A stretch of DNA of 62,213 nucleotides from a virus, in the IMG/VR virus record IMGVR_UViG_3300021225_000381, positions 1 to 62,213 of that record, one strand, 5' to 3'. Below the pieces are notes generated by a model. That model made no database searches. It was not told where the DNA came from and worked only from the letters and a program-made list of their open reading frames with translations. Within the stretch, counting starts at the first letter, position 1. The number at the start of each line of letters is the position of its first letter. Below are positions 11,435 through 40,711 of the stretch, piece by piece. The position numbers and the translations under genes were made by a program.

Positions 11435-11687
11435 CGCTATCAATCACCTACTTTTCGATAAAAAAAGTGAAATGACCAATGAATTATTGGAAGAATTTTC
11501 ACCTTTTATGGTTAGCAGATATTTAAGTTTTTACGATAAAAATCTGCTGAAGTATACCAATGAAACATTGAACAAATATTCTCAAATATTCGAGACAGAT
11601 GAAGAAAGATTCAGATTTTTTGAGAATGTTATACCAAAATTGAAACGTAAAAAAATAGATTATCTTTCCAAAAAGAAAAAAGTATGA
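11427..11687 (+). CDS. small protein of unknown function in the sugar operon
   Basis: 86 residues, mostly helical and charged, with many aromatic residues (MVSRYLSFYDKNLLKY) and a lysine-rich C-terminus. I recognise no family. Overlaps of 8 nt upstream and 4 nt downstream show that it is part of the operon and translated with it. Confidence 0.6.
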   Translation: MYNAINHLLFDKKSEMTNELLEEFSPFMVSRYLSFYDKNLLKYTNETLNKYSQIFETDEERFRFFENVIPKLKRKKIDYLSKKKKV

Positions 11688-12445
11688 AAGCTTTAGTCGT
11701 TTGCCCTACTTACGGTAGAATACCATATTTGGGTCGAATGTTGGCATCATTTTTGATCCAAAATCATGCAGATAAACATCTGGTGATTATAAACGATGAT
11801 CCTAATATTACTTTAAGATGTAAGCATAATAATGTCACCACCATAAATGTTTGTAAAAGAATAACAGTGGGTGAAAAAAGAAATATTGGAATTGTCGCTA
11901 AAAACGACTCTGATGTAATTTTTCCTTTCGATGATGACGATCTTTTTTTACCAAATAGGATATCTAATAATATTTTTAAAATTGGTAACGGTGTTCAAGC
12001 TTATAGAAATAGAATAGCTTACGTCACATATAATAATAAATTTGTAATCGATAATTCACCACCTAACTGTATTTCTTTTTTGAAAGAAACGTGGACTAAT
12101 GTTGGAGGATATCCAAGTCTTTCAGATGGTAGTGATGATAGTGTTCTCCATAATAAAATATCATCCACCAATAATTTATTATTAGAAGATAATAATGAAA
12201 TAGATTTTATTTACAATTTCAGTGGTGTTAATTATCACCTATCATCTGGGCAAAAAATGGAACACATTGAAAAAGTAGCTTACAATCAATTAGTCAAATT
12301 GGATCTTCTTAAAAAAGAATATTGGATAGAACCAGATTTTAAAAAATATAGAATGATGATAGAAATGGTCAAGTATTATAAAGAGATAGAAAGACCTTTC
12401 AATATTAAACATGTGGGAGATGCTGAATTGATTATTGACAATTAA
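11684..12445 (+). CDS. GT-A fold glycosyltransferase (GT2-like)
   Basis: 253 residues. KALVVCPTYGRIPYLGRML is a clear GT2 N-terminus, VGEKRNIGI the donor loop, and VIFPFDDDDLFLPNRI (about 86-101) the metal-binding acidic cluster. ETWTNVGGYP is the usual acceptor-side segment of GT2 enzymes. It is the last gene of the glycosyltransferase operon; a new promoter-like sequence follows. Confidence 0.8.
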   Translation: MKALVVCPTYGRIPYLGRMLASFLIQNHADKHLVIINDDPNITLRCKHNNVTTINVCKRITVGEKRNIGIVAKNDSDVIFPFDDDDLFLPNRISNNIFKIGNGVQAYRNRIAYVTYNNKFVIDNSPPNCISFLKETWTNVGGYPSLSDGSDDSVLHNKISSTNNLLLEDNNEIDFIYNFSGVNYHLSSGQKMEHIEKVAYNQLVKLDLLKKEYWIEPDFKKYRMMIEMVKYYKEIERPFNIKHVGDAELIIDN

Positions 12446-16445: not shown

Positions 16446-18386
16446 GTGAAGGATTATAGTTACTTTTTCGAAAATTCCAACCTCCTCAATCTGTTTGTAG
16501 CAGCATTTGATGATGCTTTCGTGTATCGTTATGATACAAAAACAAGACAAGCAAAGGAAAAAATTGAAGTTCGTTATGTGAATGGACCAAAACATCGTGT
16601 TCTATTCGACTTGAGTGATAAGGCGAAGTCTTTGACTTTGCCCGTTGTCACTATCGAGCAAACTGGCTTATCCCGTGATTCATCGAGAATTCAAAACAAA
16701 GATCAATTTTTATATAGAAAGCAATTAGATGCTACGAATAGATTATCCAAAATCCCAACACCAATTCCTGTCAATCTTACTCTGGATGTAAATATCATCT
16801 GTTATTTTAAGGAGGATCTGGATCAAATTATTCAGAATTTTGTAGTTAATTGTAACCCATATATCATCGTTTCTTGGAAAATTCCAGAGAAATTTGATAT
16901 GCCTTTTATCGACGAAATCAGAAGCGAAATACAATGGTCGGGTGATATTTCTTACGACAATCCTAAAGACTTATCGCCAGATGTGAAATGGAGAATTTCT
17001 GCATCTACTTCATTCACTGTCAAAGGATGGTTGTTCAAGGATCACGAACAGACACAAAAACCAATTTATGTCATAGAATCAAATTTCCATGCTCTTCCCG
17101 TATCGAATCGTTTCTGTGATGTAAATGATTATGATAAAATAAAATTAGATGGTGTTCAAAGTGAAACCGTTTCAATTAGTGCTTATCCAGAATTCACTAA
17201 TTATTTCGTTAACGGTAATCCACATACAGCTATTAGTCTTGAAAATCTAAATGAAAAAACATTCACTTTTTACGGAAAAAGATTCAATTACGACAATTCT
17301 TGGTATCTCAGTGGTGGTAATATTTCAAAACTTATTTTAGAAAAAGTCGAAACTTCTAAATCTCCTGCGATTTTTGCTTATAGAATACCGAATGATTTAG
17401 TGACAATCTTTAGCGATAATATTGCAACTATAACTTTCCCATTCAATTATTTTGAAAATTTGAGCGGTGAATTTAAGTTCATAACGGCAAACAAAGTTGC
17501 TTGGACTGAAAGTATCAATTTGTCAGTAATTGATAATCAAAATTTCACACCAATTGTAAGCACGACACCACCAGTAAGCACGACACCACCACCTCTACCA
17601 ACTCCAATATATTTGAATGAACAAGTTATTTCAGGTGTCGATACCAGACTTGTAAATAAAAGTCCAACATCTGCTTTGAGTTTATATACAGTCAGAAATC
17701 ACACATCAGGTATTTACACTAGAAATCTTAGTGCTTGGTGTGCTGATTTGCCGAAAGTTCTGACATGTATAAGCCCATGGAATAGCTCTGGTGTTAATAA
17801 TTATGCTGGGACTCTTATTAGTCCTAGACACATTATTTTTGCTGCTCATTATCAAATTCCTACCAATGCTCAAATAAGATTTGTCGATGTTAATAATAAT
17901 GTAATCACCAGAACGATGATTAGTAAAATTACTCATCCTGATTACACACCATATTATCCAGATTTGACTGTTGGATTATTGGATTCGGATGTTCCTTCTG
18001 AAATATCATTTGCGAAAGTTTTACCAAATAATTGGGCTGAATACATCACATCATTCTCCCCTAGAATACCAGCATTGACTTTAGACCAAGAGGAAAAAGC
18101 TCTAGTCACAGACTGGACATCGGAAAATACATATTCAGGATTTTCTGCTCCAATAGATTCCAAGAGATTGGAATTTTATGAAGCTAAAATAGCGGGAGAT
18201 TCTGGTAATCCAGCAATCATTATTATCAACAATGAACCCGTTATTCTCACTGTTTGGACTTTCGGTGGTGCTGGTTCTGGAACTTCCATAGGAAATCAAA
18301 AAGTTAAGTTGAATGAAATGATGACAACTCTTGGTGGCGGTTATCAATTAACAGAAATTGATTTATCGGGATTCACTAAACCATAA
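16446..18386 (+). CDS. gp15: gp15-like tail sheath stabilizer fused to a trypsin-like serine protease
   Basis: 646 residues from a GTG at 16446; an ATG four bases upstream is out of frame and stops at once. Residues 1-150 match the tail sheath stabilizer/completion family of T4 gp15 (LNLFVAAFDDAFVYRYD, IEVRYVNGPKHRVLF, LPVVTIEQTGLSRDSSR, PVNLTLDVNI). A beta-rich region to about 365 is followed by a proline/threonine linker (STTPPVSTTPPPLPTP). Residues about 390-640 look like a chymotrypsin-fold protease: AAHY (His468), YPDLTVGLL (Asp506) and AGDSGNP (Ser586). T4 gp15 is 272 residues and has no protease. The frame is unbroken, so the fusion is not an obvious frameshift artefact. Confidence 0.8.
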   Translation: MKDYSYFFENSNLLNLFVAAFDDAFVYRYDTKTRQAKEKIEVRYVNGPKHRVLFDLSDKAKSLTLPVVTIEQTGLSRDSSRIQNKDQFLYRKQLDATNRLSKIPTPIPVNLTLDVNIICYFKEDLDQIIQNFVVNCNPYIIVSWKIPEKFDMPFIDEIRSEIQWSGDISYDNPKDLSPDVKWRISASTSFTVKGWLFKDHEQTQKPIYVIESNFHALPVSNRFCDVNDYDKIKLDGVQSETVSISAYPEFTNYFVNGNPHTAISLENLNEKTFTFYGKRFNYDNSWYLSGGNISKLILEKVETSKSPAIFAYRIPNDLVTIFSDNIATITFPFNYFENLSGEFKFITANKVAWTESINLSVIDNQNFTPIVSTTPPVSTTPPPLPTPIYLNEQVISGVDTRLVNKSPTSALSLYTVRNHTSGIYTRNLSAWCADLPKVLTCISPWNSSGVNNYAGTLISPRHIIFAAHYQIPTNAQIRFVDVNNNVITRTMISKITHPDYTPYYPDLTVGLLDSDVPSEISFAKVLPNNWAEYITSFSPRIPALTLDQEEKALVTDWTSENTYSGFSAPIDSKRLEFYEAKIAGDSGNPAIIIINNEPVILTVWTFGGAGSGTSIGNQKVKLNEMMTTLGGGYQLTEIDLSGFTKP

Positions 18387-18450
18387 AAAACATTTTGAGA
18401 TAAATAATATTATCCGAACGATATTTAATTGAATAATTGACAAATCTCCT

Positions 18451-18456
18451 TAAATA
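18451..18456 (+). promoter_or_regulatory. late-type TAAATA box for the portal gene
   Basis: CTTAAATAATAAGT directly before the ATG; 6-nt gap. A TTGACA lies only 8 nt upstream of the box, and a second TAAATAATATT occurs near 18402 without a start codon after it. Confidence 0.55.
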
Positions 18457-18462
18457 ATAAGT

Positions 18463-20265
18463 ATGGCGGGTATCGGCAGTTCAACAACACCATCTTCAAA
18501 CAAACAATATCAAGGGAGCGATGGTAAAGGCTCCACTTTTGATAGGAATATGCAATCCTATTTGAAGAATCGTGGGAACTTTATTGAACAAACTCCTGAC
18601 GAAGCGAAGAACACCAAATATAAATATTTCCAAAAAATTGGTCTTCGTAGACCAGAAGCGATTGCAAAGAACTCTGTAGCACTTAATAACGACTGGAATA
18701 ATACAGCGTTTTCTGCTATCTATCAAGACAAATCCTTCACGGATTTGATGTATTCTCAAGCTTCGGAGGAAAAACCAGGTCGTCTCAGAGACTATCGCAT
18801 GATCGCATCATTCTCTGAAGTGGCAGACGCTTTAGATGAAATTTGTGATGAGACGATCAATGTTGATGAAAATGGTGAAATTGTGACTCTATCTTTCCGT
18901 AATACAGATTTGGAATCGGAAAAAAAAGAAGATTTACAAAAAGAATTTTCCAAATTTGTCTCCATGATGGAATTAGATGACAACGGATGGCATTATTTTC
19001 GACAATTTCTTATCGAAGGTGAACTGTTTTTCGAATTGATTCTGAAAGAAGACTACATCAGACAAGGTGTTGTTGCTATTAAAAATCTCCCTGCTGATCA
19101 ATTTGATCCTGTCTATGACAATATTCAAACAATGTTGGTCAAAGCTTTTATTTACAAAAAGCCTATTTTTTCTAGTGTTGATAACAAAAAAGTCGAACGC
19201 TACGAATATATCCCATTTGAAAAGAATCAAGTTCTCTATGTAAACAGCGGACAATACAATGAAACCAAAGATTTCATTATTCCTTTCATCGAGAATTGCC
19301 GTAGAGCTTATAGACAGCTTTCGATGATTGAAGATTCTGTGGTCATTCACAGAATGGTTCACGCTCCTCTCCGATTTCTTTTCAACGTGGATGTTGGTAG
19401 ATTACCAGTTCCACAAGCGGAAGCGTATCTGAGAAAATTACAAAGTCAATATTGGTCTACAAAAACTTTCGATATCGACCAAGGTGATATTGTTAAAAAA
19501 TATGCTCCCCAATCCACTTTGGATTCTTTCTGGTTCGCTAAAAGACATGGTCAAGAAGCAACTACCGTGGAAACTTTCGGTGGTCAACCATCGGATGGTA
19601 ATCTCGATGTTCTAGATTGGTTTATTAAGAAACTTTATCGTTCTTTGAAAACTCCCACTTCTCGTCTGAATGATGAGACGGGTTATAATGATGGAACGGA
19701 AATGCTTCGCGAAGAACTCAAGTTCGCGAAAATGATCATTCGTCAGCAACAAAGATTTGCACAAGGTATCAAACGAGCATTCATCACGCATCTCAAATTC
19801 AAAGGAATGTTTGAAGAATATGATCTTTTTGAAGATAATATTCGAATAGAATTCAATGTTCCGACGAATTTCTACGACATGAGAGAGAGTCAAAAACTCA
19901 ATCTCAAAATCGAAACATTTAATAATATTGTTTCCAATGAATTCGTATCCACTACTTTCGCAATGAAAAAATATTTGGAATGGAAAGATTCAGATATTTT
20001 AGCAAATCGTCATTTCTTGAGAAATGAAGCAGAATTCTTGTTCGAAATTGAACAAATTAAAGCCAATGGACCTAACTGGAAAGAACTCGCAGCACAACAA
20101 GCTGAAGGTGATATGGGTGGCTTAGGTGGTGGCGGTGGTGGCGGTATGCCTCCAGACTTCGGTGGTGCAGGCGCAACAATCGGTGGTGGTGAGGAAGCAG
20201 ATTTAGGTGCTGGTGAAGAAGCTCCACCAGCAGAAGCACCAGAAACTCCTGAAGCAGAAGTTTAA
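18463..20265 (+). CDS. gp20: portal protein (T4 gp20-like)
   Basis: 600 residues, slightly longer than T4 gp20 (524). LRDYRMIASFSEVADALDEICDE (about 107-129) and the conserved stretch ELFFELILKEDYIRQGVVAIKNLP are gp20 landmarks, as are PTSRLNDETGYNDGTEMLREELKF near 410. The C-terminus is a glycine- and acid-rich tail (GGLGGGGGGGMPP) that is probably disordered. The dodecameric portal is the DNA gate and the nucleus for head assembly. It has its own TAAATA box and is followed 1 nt later by a small gene. Confidence 0.9.
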   Translation: MAGIGSSTTPSSNKQYQGSDGKGSTFDRNMQSYLKNRGNFIEQTPDEAKNTKYKYFQKIGLRRPEAIAKNSVALNNDWNNTAFSAIYQDKSFTDLMYSQASEEKPGRLRDYRMIASFSEVADALDEICDETINVDENGEIVTLSFRNTDLESEKKEDLQKEFSKFVSMMELDDNGWHYFRQFLIEGELFFELILKEDYIRQGVVAIKNLPADQFDPVYDNIQTMLVKAFIYKKPIFSSVDNKKVERYEYIPFEKNQVLYVNSGQYNETKDFIIPFIENCRRAYRQLSMIEDSVVIHRMVHAPLRFLFNVDVGRLPVPQAEAYLRKLQSQYWSTKTFDIDQGDIVKKYAPQSTLDSFWFAKRHGQEATTVETFGGQPSDGNLDVLDWFIKKLYRSLKTPTSRLNDETGYNDGTEMLREELKFAKMIIRQQQRFAQGIKRAFITHLKFKGMFEEYDLFEDNIRIEFNVPTNFYDMRESQKLNLKIETFNNIVSNEFVSTTFAMKKYLEWKDSDILANRHFLRNEAEFLFEIEQIKANGPNWKELAAQQAEGDMGGLGGGGGGGMPPDFGGAGATIGGGEEADLGAGEEAPPAEAPETPEAEV

Positions 20266-20266
20266 T

Positions 20267-20680
20267 ATGAAAAATCTAGATTATAAAAATTTAGCTTTAT
20301 TGTATGAAAGTGTGTATGATGATAACACCCACGATGATTATTTACAAGGTAATTGTGCTTCTCTAGCTCTTAAATTACACGATTTAACAGGGTGGAAAAT
20401 TTTTATATTATCAAATCCAGAAGGGTATCCCTTAGATGGTGATAAAATCGAATACACACACGTAGCAGTTGAACATCCATCAGGTAGATATTTTGACACT
20501 AAAGGTTTGCGAAGTAATAAACAAATAGCTTATGATTTTGGAATTGATTATCTCAAACCTTACGAAATCACTCGAAAAAAATTAATCAAATTATTAAAAG
20601 ATGATGGTCCGTTTGACTGTTATTTGGATGAAGATGAAATCCAGAGATATGCTGAATATTTAGTTAAAAAATATTCTTAA
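20267..20680 (+). CDS. small papain-like fold candidate protein
   Basis: 137 residues starting at the ATG 1 nt after the portal stop; a longer frame beginning inside the portal gene is unlikely. GNCASLALKLHDLTGW (about 26-41), then YTHVAVEHPSGRYFDTKG, puts a Cys, a His and an Asp in the order seen in small papain-like or NlpC-like proteins found in phages and toxins. No activity is established. It may be a virion-associated or moron protein. Confidence 0.55.
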   Translation: MKNLDYKNLALLYESVYDDNTHDDYLQGNCASLALKLHDLTGWKIFILSNPEGYPLDGDKIEYTHVAVEHPSGRYFDTKGLRSNKQIAYDFGIDYLKPYEITRKKLIKLLKDDGPFDCYLDEDEIQRYAEYLVKKYS

Positions 20681-21351
20681 TTTAAGGGAATATTGTAGCT
20701 TTTAGCACAATCTCTTGCTTTTTGATCGGATGGTAAAATAGATCCATGCCACAGGTAGTCCTGTCCACCTTTTATCGGTCCTAATGGTCTAACTTTTATT
20801 ACCCACTCACCCAAACTTTCATCTCTAGAATTTTTGAATTTTAATTTTCCAGAATATTGCGACATTGTATCTGATGAGTATTCCCATCTTCTCATAAAAT
20901 CGTCCAATTGTTCTCCATCTTCAATGAAATTTTTCCAATTTTGTTTAAGTAGTTCTTCTGAGGAAGTTCCACATAAATGACAATAAGATTCATTAACTTG
21001 AATATTCAAACCTTTAGACGTTGTTCTAAAGGATGGTTTAGGGTTCAACCAAAACAAAGCTTCAATTTCAGCTTTTACTATATTCAGCGAATCTTTCATG
21101 GAACCACCACCATTTGGGGAAATCTCATATTCGACTCGCTTCACTCTATCATCTAAATTCATTACACACTCTTTAATTTCTTGTAAAGTGCTGGGTATCA
21201 AGTGTTTTGATTTGTTGTATTCCTGATGTTTTTTATATTTGTCGGTCAACCACGTTCTAACACGTTTTATAGACAATAGAACGCTACCTAAAACGCTAAA
21301 AACTAGAGTAAGGGCTTGCGCATTTTGTGTGATAAAATCCCATAAATTCAT
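20677..21351 (-). CDS. membrane-anchored PAS-domain protein
   Basis: 224 residues on the opposite strand within the virion module. A single transmembrane helix (about residues 12-30, LTLVFSVLGSVLLSI) is followed by a basic and coiled segment with the SPNGGGSMKDSLNIV motif, then a PAS-like domain (about 108-215: LNIQVNESYCHLCGTSSEEL, NFIEDGEQLDDF, WVIKVRPLG, DYLWHGSILP). PAS domains sense ligands, redox state or light. Holin- or sensor-like roles at the inner membrane can be imagined, but none is shown. It has its own TAAATA box and ends 4 nt inside the convergent upstream gene. Confidence 0.65.
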   Translation of the reverse strand: MNLWDFITQNAQALTLVFSVLGSVLLSIKRVRTWLTDKYKKHQEYNKSKHLIPSTLQEIKECVMNLDDRVKRVEYEISPNGGGSMKDSLNIVKAEIEALFWLNPKPSFRTTSKGLNIQVNESYCHLCGTSSEELLKQNWKNFIEDGEQLDDFMRRWEYSSDTMSQYSGKLKFKNSRDESLGEWVIKVRPLGPIKGGQDYLWHGSILPSDQKARDCAKSYNIPLN

Positions 21352-21356
21352 AGTAT

Positions 21357-21362
21357 TATTTA
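21357..21362 (-). promoter_or_regulatory. late-type TAAATA box for the PAS gene
   Basis: TAAATA on the minus strand with exactly 5 nt before the ATG at 21351; it overlaps the 3' end of the next minus-strand gene. Confidence 0.55.
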
Positions 21363-21656
21363 TTCACAGAAGCTAACACAATTTAATGCAGAGTTATAAT
21401 AAAATTTAGTTCCATTATTTGACAAAGCAGACCACCCAGTATCAGTTGGTTTTTCACAAACAGGGAAATAATATTGAGTCCCATTATTGGCTGATGGTTG
21501 AATAAATATAGTGCTTTGCCCCCAAAGGATGAAATCATTTGCGGAAAGATAATAATATCTAGAACCGTTATTACTATTGGGATTCCAATCTGAAACAGTG
21601 GGAACACCGCAAGATAATTTGTAATAGACTGTGCCGTTATTAGACTCAAATGACAT
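21360..21656 (-). CDS. small four-repeat protein (NNG..YY repeats)
   Basis: 98 residues made of four imperfect repeats of about 25 residues, each containing NNG[ST].[FVRQK]YY (NNGTVYY, NNGSRYYY, NNGTQYY, NNGTKFYY) and often a PxxxxW turn. No signal peptide. The composition suggests a small beta-solenoid or a surface/fibre accessory protein. Own TAAATA box; it belongs with the PAS gene as an opposite-strand pair between portal and neck genes. Confidence 0.6.
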   Translation of the reverse strand: MSFESNNGTVYYKLSCGVPTVSDWNPNSNNGSRYYYLSANDFILWGQSTIFIQPSANNGTQYYFPVCEKPTDTGWSALSNNGTKFYYNSALNCVSFCE

Positions 21657-29956: not shown

Positions 29957-30622
29957 ATGGCGTTGAAACTTAAATTAATCGCAGAGAATCCTGACGTGTT
30001 TGATAACTTTGAAGTTATTGAAGAGCAATCTAATCGAAACAGTTCATCCAACCTTTATGTTAAAGGTCCTTTTATCGGATGTAATACTGTTAATAAAAAT
30101 AAAAGAATGTATCGACTTGATGATACCAGATCAGAAGTTCAAAGATACATTAATGAGATGGTGCTTCCAGGTAGAGCGATGGGCGAATTGAATCACCCCA
30201 CAAGTGCTGATGTGAATCTCGAAAGAGCGTGTCACTTGGTCACAGAATTACATGAAGTCGATGATTATTTCGTAGGGAAAGCTAAAGTTTTATCAACTCC
30301 TACTGGGCAGATCCTCCGTGCGCTCATTAATGATGGTGTTAAGGTTGGTATGTCCACCCGTGCGCTTGGTCAATTGATGGAAAACCGTGATTATAATTTG
30401 GTTCAAAATATGCATTTAGTGGCTATCGACGCTGTTGCCGATCCATCTTATCCAAAAGCTTTTGTCAATGGTATTTTAGAAAGTAAAACTTATGTCGTAG
30501 AACAAGACGGTTCATTCGAAGAAGTTTATGAGAATTTTGAAAAGACGATTAAAACTCTTCCGAAACATGATGTTGAATCTTATCTTCGTCAACAAATCAT
30601 AAAATTTATCAATAGTATCTAA
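29957..30622 (+). CDS. gp21: prohead core protease (T4 gp21-like)
   Basis: 221 residues (T4 gp21, 212). GRAMGELNHPTS places the catalytic His at residue 80 and VGMSTRALG the catalytic Ser at 133, as in the U35/S80 family, where the T4 residues are His85 and Ser140. The protease digests the scaffold and trims gp23 inside the prohead. It lies directly upstream of its presumed substrates. Confidence 0.9.
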   Translation: MALKLKLIAENPDVFDNFEVIEEQSNRNSSSNLYVKGPFIGCNTVNKNKRMYRLDDTRSEVQRYINEMVLPGRAMGELNHPTSADVNLERACHLVTELHEVDDYFVGKAKVLSTPTGQILRALINDGVKVGMSTRALGQLMENRDYNLVQNMHLVAIDAVADPSYPKAFVNGILESKTYVVEQDGSFEEVYENFEKTIKTLPKHDVESYLRQQIIKFINSI

Positions 30623-36320: not shown

Positions 36321-38084
36321 ATGGCCACTAAAAAATATAATATTAATACGAATAAAAATAAAAAAGGTTTTACAACTGATTGTGTAATTCCTAAACAAAT
36401 ATCATTATCATGTCCTGATAATCTACTATCGAATTCTACCACAACACCATCTCAATCAGCATTATCAGCTATTGATACTGGAAATTCCGTAATTAATAAA
36501 ATATATAGAAATAGGTTTGCTATAAATCAAAGAGGTGGATCTATTGTTATCAACAACACAACGGACGACGAGAGTGTTCATATTTCTCATAGATCTGGTA
36601 GTAATTTTAATATCAACAATAATGTAAACACTGAACTTGCAACCAATAATAAACAAATAATGGTTCAAAATGATAAATTTGAAACTGTCAAAAATGATAG
36701 TGTTGAGTTTATCGGAGGTGATTACAATTTAAGAGTCGGTGGAACATCTTACATTTATAAAGGATATAAAGATGAGACGGAGATAAGAGCGCACGATGAA
36801 TGGAAAGATGTTTTCAAAAAAATCGCTGATAATAATTCCAAGTTCAAAATAAAAAGAGGTGGATATTCATTACCAAATGGACAACCAACCGAGATGGATG
36901 GTGAACGCTCCAACAACCCTGTAATCGGATCACAAGTTTTCGTAGTGGAGAATTTATTCGCAGGATATCAAAGCATTCCAACTGTTACCAGTAATATCGA
37001 TGAAGTAGCCACTTACAAACCAATTAAAAATAGAGTAGGTACACCACCATCAATAAAGACTATCAAAAAAGAAGATATTGCGAAAAGTGCTGGAAATAGC
37101 GGCTCTAAAGCTCCAGGTGTGTTAGAATTCGGTGCTGAAAAATCTGCCTCCACTGAAAACGGTAAATGGATTGAAAATGCTGATGTTCTTAATATGGAAG
37201 AACAAGTGTTGGAAGCACAATCCATATTGACTGAAATTGAAGGAAGAATGGGTGACGGTGGTGACGAACATCTGATTACAAAGCGTAATAAATTTGAAAC
37301 TGTCGGTGCAGTGTTCAATGATTACCCATCTGTTAAGATTGATGAAAAGGGTAGAAGTCAGCCATTTGAAATGCTCGTATCTGATACTGGAACATATAAA
37401 AATCATGACGCAATACCAATTTTAGAAGAGGTTGATAATTCTTCTAATTTCCCATGTGGGAATGATACGAAAATTATAGGTAATTCGTATAAAAGAAATG
37501 TTGGTTCAGGTGGTATCTCAATGAAGACTTCTGGAACATATGAAATGGGTGGCACTATTTTAAGAGGCGGATTCAAACAGATAATTCTGAATTCATCTCA
37601 TGGTATTCATATAGGTTCAGAGAATGGTGTTGAGATACAATCCTTAAAGACTATCACTCTTAGAACAGCTAGACAAGTATATGTCGAATCGTCTTTAGGT
37701 GTTAAAAATAATTTGATTGTTGGTGGTGGTTTATCTGTCGAAGGTGAAACATATCTCCAACATGTAACAGCACCATTGGAAGTTCAACAAACTGAAAATA
37801 CCGTAGTTCAAGGTAAGTTTTCAACCAGTTTACCGCTCACATTAAGAATTGGAACCGCTGTTGTTCCTGGAATAGGTCTATGCCCTGTTTTCGCTGAACC
37901 TTTGGATAATTTAATAACTATCTATCCACATAGTCACCATTTTAATAATTTACCATTGAATCTCATGGCATCAAATAAAGATGTGAGAAAGGAAGCGCAT
38001 GTGAATGGTATTAATAAACACGATTCTATTGCACCTTCTTTCCCACAAGTTCATGAGAAGAAATATCCGAGAGTGGTTAATTAA
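36321..38084 (+). CDS. baseplate central spike-like protein (gp5 C-terminal-like)
   Basis: 587 residues. INQRGGSIVINNTTDDESVHISHRSGS and DKFETVKNDSVEFIGGDYNLRVG are typical of the stem of gp5/VgrG spikes, and the 400-500 region (GIHIGSENGVEIQS, ITLRTARQVYVES) is beta-helix-like. PHSHHF near the C-terminus could bind metal. Together with the preceding gene it appears to make up a split gp5: hub domain and spike on separate polypeptides. It ends by overlapping the nrdA stop on the other strand. Confidence 0.65.
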   Translation: MATKKYNINTNKNKKGFTTDCVIPKQISLSCPDNLLSNSTTTPSQSALSAIDTGNSVINKIYRNRFAINQRGGSIVINNTTDDESVHISHRSGSNFNINNNVNTELATNNKQIMVQNDKFETVKNDSVEFIGGDYNLRVGGTSYIYKGYKDETEIRAHDEWKDVFKKIADNNSKFKIKRGGYSLPNGQPTEMDGERSNNPVIGSQVFVVENLFAGYQSIPTVTSNIDEVATYKPIKNRVGTPPSIKTIKKEDIAKSAGNSGSKAPGVLEFGAEKSASTENGKWIENADVLNMEEQVLEAQSILTEIEGRMGDGGDEHLITKRNKFETVGAVFNDYPSVKIDEKGRSQPFEMLVSDTGTYKNHDAIPILEEVDNSSNFPCGNDTKIIGNSYKRNVGSGGISMKTSGTYEMGGTILRGGFKQIILNSSHGIHIGSENGVEIQSLKTITLRTARQVYVESSLGVKNNLIVGGGLSVEGETYLQHVTAPLEVQQTENTVVQGKFSTSLPLTLRIGTAVVPGIGLCPVFAEPLDNLITIYPHSHHFNNLPLNLMASNKDVRKEAHVNGINKHDSIAPSFPQVHEKKYPRVVN

Positions 38085-39733
38085 CCCTCACATGATTTAC
38101 ATGTCATAATAGATCTTGACAAATCTTGACTAGGGTTGGATGAACGCTGGTAATACAAAGACTTAATACCTTGCTCCCATGCAAAGATCATCAACTCATT
38201 GATTTCTTTTGGTTTTGTGCCAGCAGGAATCATGAGATTGAGAGATTGCCCCTGATCAATATATGGTTGTCGTTGAGCAGCATGGATTACAACTTCTTTT
38301 TGAGAAATTTCTGCAAATGTTTTGAAAACATCTTTCTCATGTTCTGTGAGAAAATCGAGATGTTGAACACTACCACCGTGGAGTAGAATACTCTTCCAAG
38401 TTTCTTTATCATCTTTACCTTTGGATTTCAGAACTTCTTCAAGTTTTGGATTGCGGTAAGTAAATTGACCTTTGGCAAGATTCTTAACGAAGTAGTTGCT
38501 GTTAAGAGGCTCAATGCTAGGACTCACCTGACCAAGAATAAAGCTGGAACTCGTAGTGGGTGCAATAGCGATAGTTGTAGTATTGCGACGACCATAACCT
38601 TTCAATACTTCTGGTTCACCAAACATTGCTGCGAGTTTTTCTGATGTATTGTCAGCACGTTTTCTGATTTCTGAAAAAATTGAGATATTCTCAAAATGCG
38701 CGTCCATGCTTTCCCATGCAATCATTTTTGATTGCAGGTAGTTGTGATATCCAAGAACACCCATACCTAATGCTCGATGATTCTTGGCAAAATTATGAGC
38801 AGCTTCCATCAAACGATCACCTTTAGTCTTCTCGATAAATTCTGTCATAACAGCATCCAAGAACATCACCATTGTTTCAACAGCATCAGTCTTTTCAATC
38901 TCATCCCACCAAAGCAAATTCAAAGAAGACAAGCAACAAACAAACGACTCGTCTTTAGTTGATGGTAGAAAAATCTCAGAGCAAAGGTTACTCGCATTGA
39001 TTCTATAGCCTTTATCTTTGTAAACTTTAGGTGCTTGGTTATTGGCGTTATCCGTGAAGAATACATATGGATAACCAGTCTCAGAACGCTTCTTAATCAC
39101 TGCTGCCCATCTGCGTCTTTTCTCTTTGTCACCATCAATCATTGATTGCATCCATCCTTCAGGAACTGTAACACCGATAGACATCTCTTGAATAGAATGA
39201 CCCTCAGAAAGAATCTTCATGAATTCATCGAAGTCACCATGATCAATCGGTAGATACGCTGCAAAGCTGCCTCTACGTGCGCTTCCTTGGCTAATGATTT
39301 TTGCCACGTTGTCAAACAATTCCATACAACGAACAGCCCCTTCCGCAACACCACCAGTAGAGATTTTAGAACCTCTTGGGCGGATATCGCCAAAGTATCC
39401 AGAAGTCCCCCCACCAACTTTAGTCATCATCCCAACTTCAGCTTGCTTGATTAGGAAATCTTCAACACTATCACCAATATGGGAATTAAAACAAGAAATA
39501 GGATTACCCCTCTCATTACCAAAATTCATCCACACGGGAGTGGATAGGCTATAAAAGCCACGAGACATATAATCAACGAATTTATCAGCAAACCCGTCAA
39601 TACCGAGTATTTTCTGTGCATTATTAGCAATTTCTTCAATTCTTTCAAATGGAGATTGCCCCTCGCGGAGATATCCTTGTTCCAAAAATTTGATAGAATC
39701 TTCATTTAACCAGTAGTATTTTTCTCTTGTCAT
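38081..39733 (-). CDS. nrdA: ribonucleotide reductase large subunit, class I
   Basis: 550 residues, shorter than E. coli NrdA (761), and starting at the catalytic barrel, so the N-terminal ATP-cone appears absent. NPISCFNSHIGDS has the first redox Cys, SNLCSEIFLPS the N-x-C-x-E of the active site thiyl radical, and FVCCLSSLNL the partner Cys. The C-terminal CKSCEG is the CxxC tail that re-reduces the site. It makes dNDPs for phage replication. It lies 3 nt after nrdB and is read from the same mRNA. Confidence 0.92.
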   Translation of the reverse strand: MTREKYYWLNEDSIKFLEQGYLREGQSPFERIEEIANNAQKILGIDGFADKFVDYMSRGFYSLSTPVWMNFGNERGNPISCFNSHIGDSVEDFLIKQAEVGMMTKVGGGTSGYFGDIRPRGSKISTGGVAEGAVRCMELFDNVAKIISQGSARRGSFAAYLPIDHGDFDEFMKILSEGHSIQEMSIGVTVPEGWMQSMIDGDKEKRRRWAAVIKKRSETGYPYVFFTDNANNQAPKVYKDKGYRINASNLCSEIFLPSTKDESFVCCLSSLNLLWWDEIEKTDAVETMVMFLDAVMTEFIEKTKGDRLMEAAHNFAKNHRALGMGVLGYHNYLQSKMIAWESMDAHFENISIFSEIRKRADNTSEKLAAMFGEPEVLKGYGRRNTTTIAIAPTTSSSFILGQVSPSIEPLNSNYFVKNLAKGQFTYRNPKLEEVLKSKGKDDKETWKSILLHGGSVQHLDFLTEHEKDVFKTFAEISQKEVVIHAAQRQPYIDQGQSLNLMIPAGTKPKEINELMIFAWEQGIKSLYYQRSSNPSQDLSRSIMTCKSCEG

Positions 39734-39736
39734 ATA

Positions 39737-40711
39737 TTAAAATAAATCGTCTTCGTCGTAAGATTGTGAATTTTTAGCGTATTCCACGGGTCTTGAGTGG
39801 AAAAAGTCGGTCATATTAGGAGCTAGCAATTGTTCATCGAACCAGAATGTTTCATCTAAAAGATTAGTATCAATTTCGAAAACTTTAGGAAATCCAATAC
39901 CAACCAAAGAGTCATTAATTCTGTTTTTAATAAATTCTTTCAAAATTGGTGCAGATAAACCTTTCTCATCAATACCATTAACCATCCAATCGATGATTTT
40001 ACTTTCAGCAATGAAAGCTTGTTCCGCTTCGTGTAGTATACGTTCTTCTAGCTCTTTGTCAAATAATTCTGGATGTTCTTCACGGATCGTATTGATAATC
40101 TTCATACCGACCATGGCATGAATCGCTTCCTCATTACGAGTGTAGCGCACTTGTTGATCAGTGTCTTTCAAAACATTTTTATTTTTAGCAAACCAATTGA
40201 TAACATAAAATTGGCTAAACAAAGAAACATTTTCCACGAATAATGTGAAAAGAATCAGCGCATAGAGATATTGTTTTTTAGAATCTTTATAAAAGCGGTG
40301 TGTATATTTTTTAAGATACTTCACACGACCCTGAATCCATTCAAGTTTCAGGTTCTCTTCGAAAATATCTTCCATGTCTAATTCATCCAAGAGTCTTTCG
40401 TATGCATTATTATGAATTACTTCTACGTTCGCCATTACGAAGCCGAGATCGGAAAGTGATGGGTGAGGTAGATTCTCACCAAGCTTTGACCAAAAAGTTT
40501 TAACAGCAACTTCAATTTGACCAATTGCTGACAAAGTTCTAACAATAATTTCTCTTTCTTCATCATTCAAAACTGTTTTGAATTGATGATAATCTGCTTT
40601 GAAACTGAATTCTTTATCAGTCCAAAAGCCTTGATGCATAGCCTCAATAAATTGTGTTGTCCATGGATATTTGTTCGGTTTCCTACTAATTTGTTCTTCA
40701 AAAATGCTCAT
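39737..40711 (-). CDS. nrdB: ribonucleotide reductase small subunit, class I
   Basis: 324 residues. NVEVIHNNAY contains the ExxH metal ligands and, four residues on, the tyrosine in the position of the E. coli radical Tyr122. FVENVSLF and NEEAIHAM supply the remaining Glu and ExxH ligands. The first carboxylate is the Glu of QIEVAVKTFW rather than the Asp of E. coli NrdB. The C-terminal YDEDDLF tail should dock onto NrdA. First gene of the nrdBA pair; a TAAATA box lies 10 nt upstream. Confidence 0.92.
   Translation of the reverse strand: MSIFEEQISRKPNKYPWTTQFIEAMHQGFWTDKEFSFKADYHQFKTVLNDEEREIIVRTLSAIGQIEVAVKTFWSKLGENLPHPSLSDLGFVMANVEVIHNNAYERLLDELDMEDIFEENLKLEWIQGRVKYLKKYTHRFYKDSKKQYLYALILFTLFVENVSLFSQFYVINWFAKNKNVLKDTDQQVRYTRNEEAIHAMVGMKIINTIREEHPELFDKELEERILHEAEQAFIAESKIIDWMVNGIDEKGLSAPILKEFIKNRINDSLVGIGFPKVFEIDTNLLDETFWFDEQLLAPNMTDFFHSRPVEYAKNSQSYDEDDLF

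Follow-up and report, generated by a model that had tools for sequence, protein, structure and literature searches.

The stretch of DNA analyzed here, hereafter the window, is a 62,213-nucleotide viral sequence (IMG/VR record IMGVR_UViG_3300021225_000381, positions 1 to 62,213), which holds a T4-like set of structural genes, including those for the portal protein gp20, head closure, the maturation protease, and the major head protein. An earlier note, based on the letters alone, had described one open reading frame in this region as a tail completion protein joined through a Pro/Thr linker to a trypsin-like protease. The frame is indeed open over its entire length, with both boundaries exactly as the note had placed them, and the linker was located between the two halves of the protein (Table 1). 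The gene is unchanged on a contig from another sample (L003), with the surroundings displaying 99.97-100% DNA identity over ~18 kb, and is thus not an assembly artefact; its composition (GC 0.355 vs 0.354 for the window) does not indicate recent import. In these otherwise identical contigs, the portal protein differs in length within a repetitive stretch at its C terminus, with 600 amino acids in the window (~20107-20265) and 614 in L003 (~11686-11862).

Table 1. Coordinates of the gp15-protease fusion gene, its parts, and two further genes of the window
Feature	Coordinates	Strand	Basis and remarks
gp15-protease fusion gene	16446..18386	+	single ORF, GTG start, 646 aa; identical in L003/L062
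gp15 core (tail sheath stabilizer/tail terminator), residues 12-217	16479..17096	+	PF16724, PHROG 227
β-rich gp15 extension, residues ~218-361	17097..17528	+	alignments; protease-less relatives end at residue 359-367
Pro/Thr-rich linker, residues ~370-388, STTPPVSTTPPPLPTP	17553..17609	+	sequence; low confidence in the full-length model
Predicted chymotrypsin-fold (S1-like) protease domain, residues 390-646	17613..18383	+	AF2, Foldseek, homologs
Candidate catalytic His468 codon	17847..17849	+	aligned with trypsin His; 62/62 distinct domains
Candidate catalytic Asp506 codon	17961..17963	+	62/62 distinct domains; in none of the search patterns
Candidate catalytic Ser586 codon, in GDSGNP	18201..18203	+	aligned with trypsin GDSGGP; 62/62 distinct domains
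T4-like portal protein (gp20), adjoins the fusion gene downstream	18463..20265	+	Pfam PF07230, E 8e-89
Head maturation protease (gp21-like), a separate assembly protease of the phage	29957..30622	+	PHROG 207, E 5e-53

The N-terminal half is a T4 gp15 homolog, as the earlier note had recognized, although the similarity covers residues 12-217 rather than the first 150: this region matches T4-gp15_tss (Pfam PF16724; E 4.5e-13, profile positions 9-209 of 245), and the N terminus matches PHROG 227, 'tail sheath stabilizer' (E 4.8e-10). In addition, the T4 gp15 structures were matched with phmmer (E 0.003), and gp15 proteins of Kyanoviridae cyanophages and of Pelagibacter phage HTVC008M were aligned by tblastn to parts of residues 1-255. 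The β-rich stretch that follows, up to about residue 361, is shared with relatives devoid of the protease; strands are predicted in it, with pLDDT values of ~60-89 across most of residues 261-361 in the full-length model. Thus, whereas T4 gp15 consists of 272 amino acids and carries no enzyme, the window protein adds to a matching core a β-rich extension, a linker, and a protease. The portal, major head protein, and maturation protease genes on the same contig are a further likeness to T4, but the gene order is not, because in the window the portal gene directly follows gp15. The slot between these two genes (18386-18462 in the window) varies from ~20 to 2000 bp among related phages (L011-L052), in which it accommodates assorted small genes, including one for a 281-amino-acid possible glycosyltransferase in L024; as a side observation, it appears to be a cargo spot, the contents of which differ among relatives. 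Other genes of the window, all on the minus strand, include one within the structural block (20677-21351) for a protein with a hydrophobic N terminus and a weak PAS-like domain, with a counterpart in the corresponding position of L004 (10939-11616); one for a 98-amino-acid protein composed of imperfect SNNGTxYY repeats (21360-21656; L004 counterpart at 11754-12053); and those for the large and small subunits of ribonucleotide reductase (38084-40711).

When the C-terminal domain alone was searched against Pfam, PHROGs, and NCBIfam, nothing usable was retrieved. Structure prediction and comparison with the S1 family had been proposed as a check in the earlier note. An AlphaFold (AF2) model of residues 390-646, based on an alignment (A7) of the window domain and five relatives, three from phages and two from bacteria, reached a pLDDT of 75.6 and a pTM of 0.80, with the four other models scoring lower. 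In a Foldseek search with this model against the PDB, the best 50 matches were all S1 proteases (E ~1e-10, probability 1.00, TM ~0.5), including factors IXa and Xa, tryptase, elastase, and chymotrypsin. Among viral models, the top match was an uncharacterized protein of an uncultured Caudovirales phage (BFVD A0A6J7XEP5; TM 0.77); most of the next matches were serine proteases and polyproteins of viruses. At the sequence level, a 33-sequence profile of the domain family (A10) matched trypsins from the PDB (E 9e-4), the His, Asp, and Ser residues being aligned in register, and S1-family proteins accounted for 35 of the 36 matches up to E 1. In contrast, the Pfam Trypsin model (PF00089) does not match the window domain and touches only 3 of the 33 family members (best E 0.0037), which, together with the E value obtained for PDB trypsins, indicates a divergent S1-like family rather than a classical trypsin. 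A profile built from homologous domains that are not fused to gp15 matches the window protein with E ~2e-110; of 500 shuffled C termini searched as a control, none passed E 10. The model of the full-length protein is poor (pLDDT 57.9, pTM 0.33) and cannot place the domain relative to the gp15 ring. Taken together, these comparisons support a chymotrypsin fold of the S1 type for the modeled domain, and a fold unrelated to chymotrypsin, which would have spoken against the earlier proposal, was not obtained. With S1 and clan PA, the domain has in common the predicted fold, the order of His, Asp, and Ser, the GDSGxP motif, and the oxyanion Gly; it differs from S1 in being internal, without a free N terminus, in lacking an equivalent of Asp189, and, as a family, in a conserved RN...W signature ahead of the core.

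The three motifs singled out in the earlier note, AAH468Y, YPD506LTVGLL, and GDS586GNP, follow each other in the order found in chymotrypsin and align in trypsin register. His468, Asp506, Asp585, Ser586, and the oxyanion Gly584 are conserved in all 62 distinct domains aligned, down to ~25-30% identity, and the RN...W signature (residues 426-431) is present in 59 of them. Given that the large scan relied on the motifs HI[VIL][FLY]AAHY and GDSGNP[AVS][FIM], the set was split by motif as a check for bias. His and Asp are kept in each of the 47 domains found through the Ser motif only, Ser and Asp in the three found through the His motif only, and all three residues in the two found through neither; the conservation of Asp506, which is part of no search motif, is free of selection bias. 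The position equivalent to Asp189 of trypsin (six residues before Ser586, with the register counted back from Ser195) is occupied by Ala580 in the window and mostly by Asn or Ser in the relatives. Accordingly, cleavage after Lys or Arg is not expected, and 'trypsin-like', the term originally applied to the domain, holds for the fold, whereas trypsin specificity is unlikely. One gp15-fused homolog outside the set of 62, L160, has His, Asp, and Ser intact but carries YDSASP instead of GDSGNP; this replacement should damage the oxyanion hole and possibly has cost the protein its activity. We regard the window domain as a probably active enzyme that uses His468-Asp506-Ser586 for catalysis.

The domain is one member of a broader phage family associated with tails. 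Scans of viral contigs with a single sequence or with two to three sequences yielded few relatives; the scan with the six-sequence alignment (A7) identified the domain on at least 92 contigs, 80 of which were kept (L077-L156). In phages, the domain is C-terminal and located among tail genes, behind varied N-terminal parts, such as one resembling the distal subunit of long tail fibers (L087), FN3 and DUF285 domains (L082 and L084), or Ig-like domains (L070 and L090), whereas in L098 and L117, it is preceded by almost no N-terminal part. Repeats or linkers ahead of the domain are collagen-like or composed of GIGSTSV or SATPSP (L149, L103, and L125). Among 91 neighboring proteins, the commonest PHROGs with named functions were mostly tail fiber, tail assembly, minor tail, and virion structural proteins, with the single commonest one labeled hyaluronidase. 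For instance, UOF78081.1 of podovirus ct3Et533 (MW202510.1), annotated as hypothetical, contains the same domain as the window protein (25% identity, E 3e-7), without fusion to gp15, and its gene lies among tail genes; likewise, A0A6J7XEP5, annotated only as uncharacterized, contains the same protease domain without the gp15 fusion. Bacterial homologs were found in a few planctomycete and verrucomicrobial genomes, including one planctomycete and one Roseibacillus MAG, with the domain present in 2 of 149 planctomycete genomes, the first planctomycete included; they retain the same motifs, and their N termini look, in our reading, signal-like or lipobox-like. No homolog of the domain was found in the plasmids searched.

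Fusion of this domain to gp15 was observed in two distant T4-like lineages, with two distinct sequences in each. Among the complete genes at the 55 gp15 loci of the first lineage, only the window sequence (also present in L003/L062) and L021 are fused, and ~45 complete relatives encode a plain gp15 of 359-404 amino acids. Residues 1-240 of L021 display 92-100% amino acid identity per 40-residue block to the protease-less proteins of L011, L019, and L014, beyond which the identity falls to 46-69% and the protease is present; such a near-identical core followed by a divergent part with the protease shows that the end of the gene was replaced by recombination. Twenty records, among them G000 and those of L003 and L021, were searched whole, and no copy of the domain was detected in any of the 17 fusion-less ones. 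The second lineage is represented by L154 (523 amino acids) and L160 (519 amino acids; L160:1094-2650). L154 has the classical gp13-gp14-gp15 order (gp15 Pfam E 1.5e-61), with the protease positioned directly behind the gp15 core. Nearly 70 relatives in this lineage are without the protease and have a gp15 of ~245-260 amino acids, with a few of ~330. In the tree of the domain, the window and L021 form a pair (98/86), whereas L154 and L160 are placed elsewhere, with L153 and L155 (97/88); a single clade of gp15-fused domains, that is, a single origin, was not rejected in the AU test (p 0.31). Considering mainly the patchy distribution, the different junctions, and the distant gp15 cores, we regard two independent gains of the protease by gp15 as likely, albeit not proven. 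The fusion is unusual, with nearly all close relatives encoding a plain gp15, yet the arrangement is recurrent.

The gp15 of T4 is a hexameric ring that caps the sheath where the tail meets the head (PMC3004832). The C terminus of the terminator of phage XM1 extends into the sheath; for T4 gp15, the C-terminal region is missing from the crystal structure (PMC10457771). From these data, the simplest placement of the protease would be outside the neck, where, by analogy with the T4 hexamer, up to six exposed domains per virion might be carried around the neck on flexible Pro/Thr tethers. Combined with the tail-protein context of the domain in other phages, this placement makes an external protein target the best explanation. 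We thus favor, with a probability of roughly 0.6, the interpretation that the uncultured T4-like phage carries, at the C terminus of gp15, a mobile, probably active chymotrypsin-fold protease, the substrates of which would be proteins encountered outside the particle, prior to or in the course of adsorption. Possible targets would be host filaments, the S-layer, and outer-membrane or matrix proteins, with the action being analogous to that of tail-borne polysaccharide depolymerases on glycans. Exposure on the neck, enzymatic activity, and an extracellular substrate are all inferred, and several considerations count against this interpretation: the neck is distant from the host surface, so that cleavage of an outer-membrane receptor via a short tether is not obvious; no free N terminus is visible for classical zymogen-type activation; and the oxyanion motif of L160 is degenerate.

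The last of these points also bears on a different, though unlikely, function, in which the S1-like fold on the neck or fibers would be an adhesin that binds a host or environmental protein, with catalysis secondary or lost. Adhesion modules are typically swapped among tail fibers and Ig or FN3 proteins, and the degenerate motif in L160, with its otherwise intact triad, leaves room for a binding-only role; the invariance of the triad and the oxyanion Gly across the 62 domains, as well as the same motifs in bacterial homologs that look secreted, argue in the opposite direction. Somewhat less probable still is a protease of virion assembly or maturation, the substrates of which would be proteins of the neck, tail, or head or, in cis, gp15. 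Proteolytic maturation is normal for T4-like phages, and gp15 is located at the head-tail joint; nevertheless, a role of this kind is disfavored, and an obligatory one contradicted, by very close relatives that lack the domain although their gp15 core is nearly the same, by its absence from the 17 relative records, and by the phage encoding its own gp21-like protease. Besides, the domain elsewhere resides on fiber-like proteins.

Production of gp15 late and in the cytoplasm would be compatible with an intracellular protease, free or gp15-bound, directed at host proteins in host takeover or counter-defense. We consider this improbable, in view of the fusion to structural proteins, the extended linkers, and the secretion-type N termini of the bacterial homologs. 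Finally, the fusion could in principle have come from faulty contig assembly or be a chance product now in decay. No support for this was found; the same gene occurs on two contigs from different samples, further fusions are found in L021, L154, and L160, and the frame and catalytic residues are intact, so that such an origin is hardly credible. An externally acting, gp15-tethered protease would account best for the observations.

Phage tail enzymes that cut sugars and the cell wall are well known, and we know of no protein-cutting enzyme on the neck ring of a phage. Tail-borne depolymerases and tail-associated lysins are, like the domain described here, tail-carried enzymes swapped between phages, but they cut polysaccharide or peptidoglycan and are mounted on the spike or tail tip, whereas the window enzyme should cut protein and be mounted on the neck ring. 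In this sense, it would be an enzyme carried by the virion, in this case a protease, with an unusual point of attachment. A search of openly licensed papers, the coverage of which is incomplete, retrieved nothing relevant on trypsin-like proteases of phage tails or necks, and a survey of jumbo phages (PMC7824862) does not mention a trypsin-like peptidase. The parts are of known kinds, and the combination and the family are apparently undescribed in the open-license literature that could be searched. We give even odds to the broader proposition that these proteins constitute a widespread but hitherto unreported family of S1-like proteases displayed on virions, swapped as a module among tail fibers, other tail proteins, and, repeatedly, gp15, and that phages would use them to cut the protein barriers surrounding hosts, much as depolymerases deal with barriers of sugar. 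Because no Pfam, PHROG, or NCBIfam model exists for the family, its members would currently be annotated as hypothetical, and the present analysis identifies it as a family. The recurrence of the module in two T4-like lineages and its parallel use on tail fibers provide a natural experiment, in which nearly identical phages either have the module or lack it. The occurrence of the domain on gp15 and on tail proteins of many other phages suggests that phages carry on their particles a swappable, hitherto undescribed protein-cutting module.
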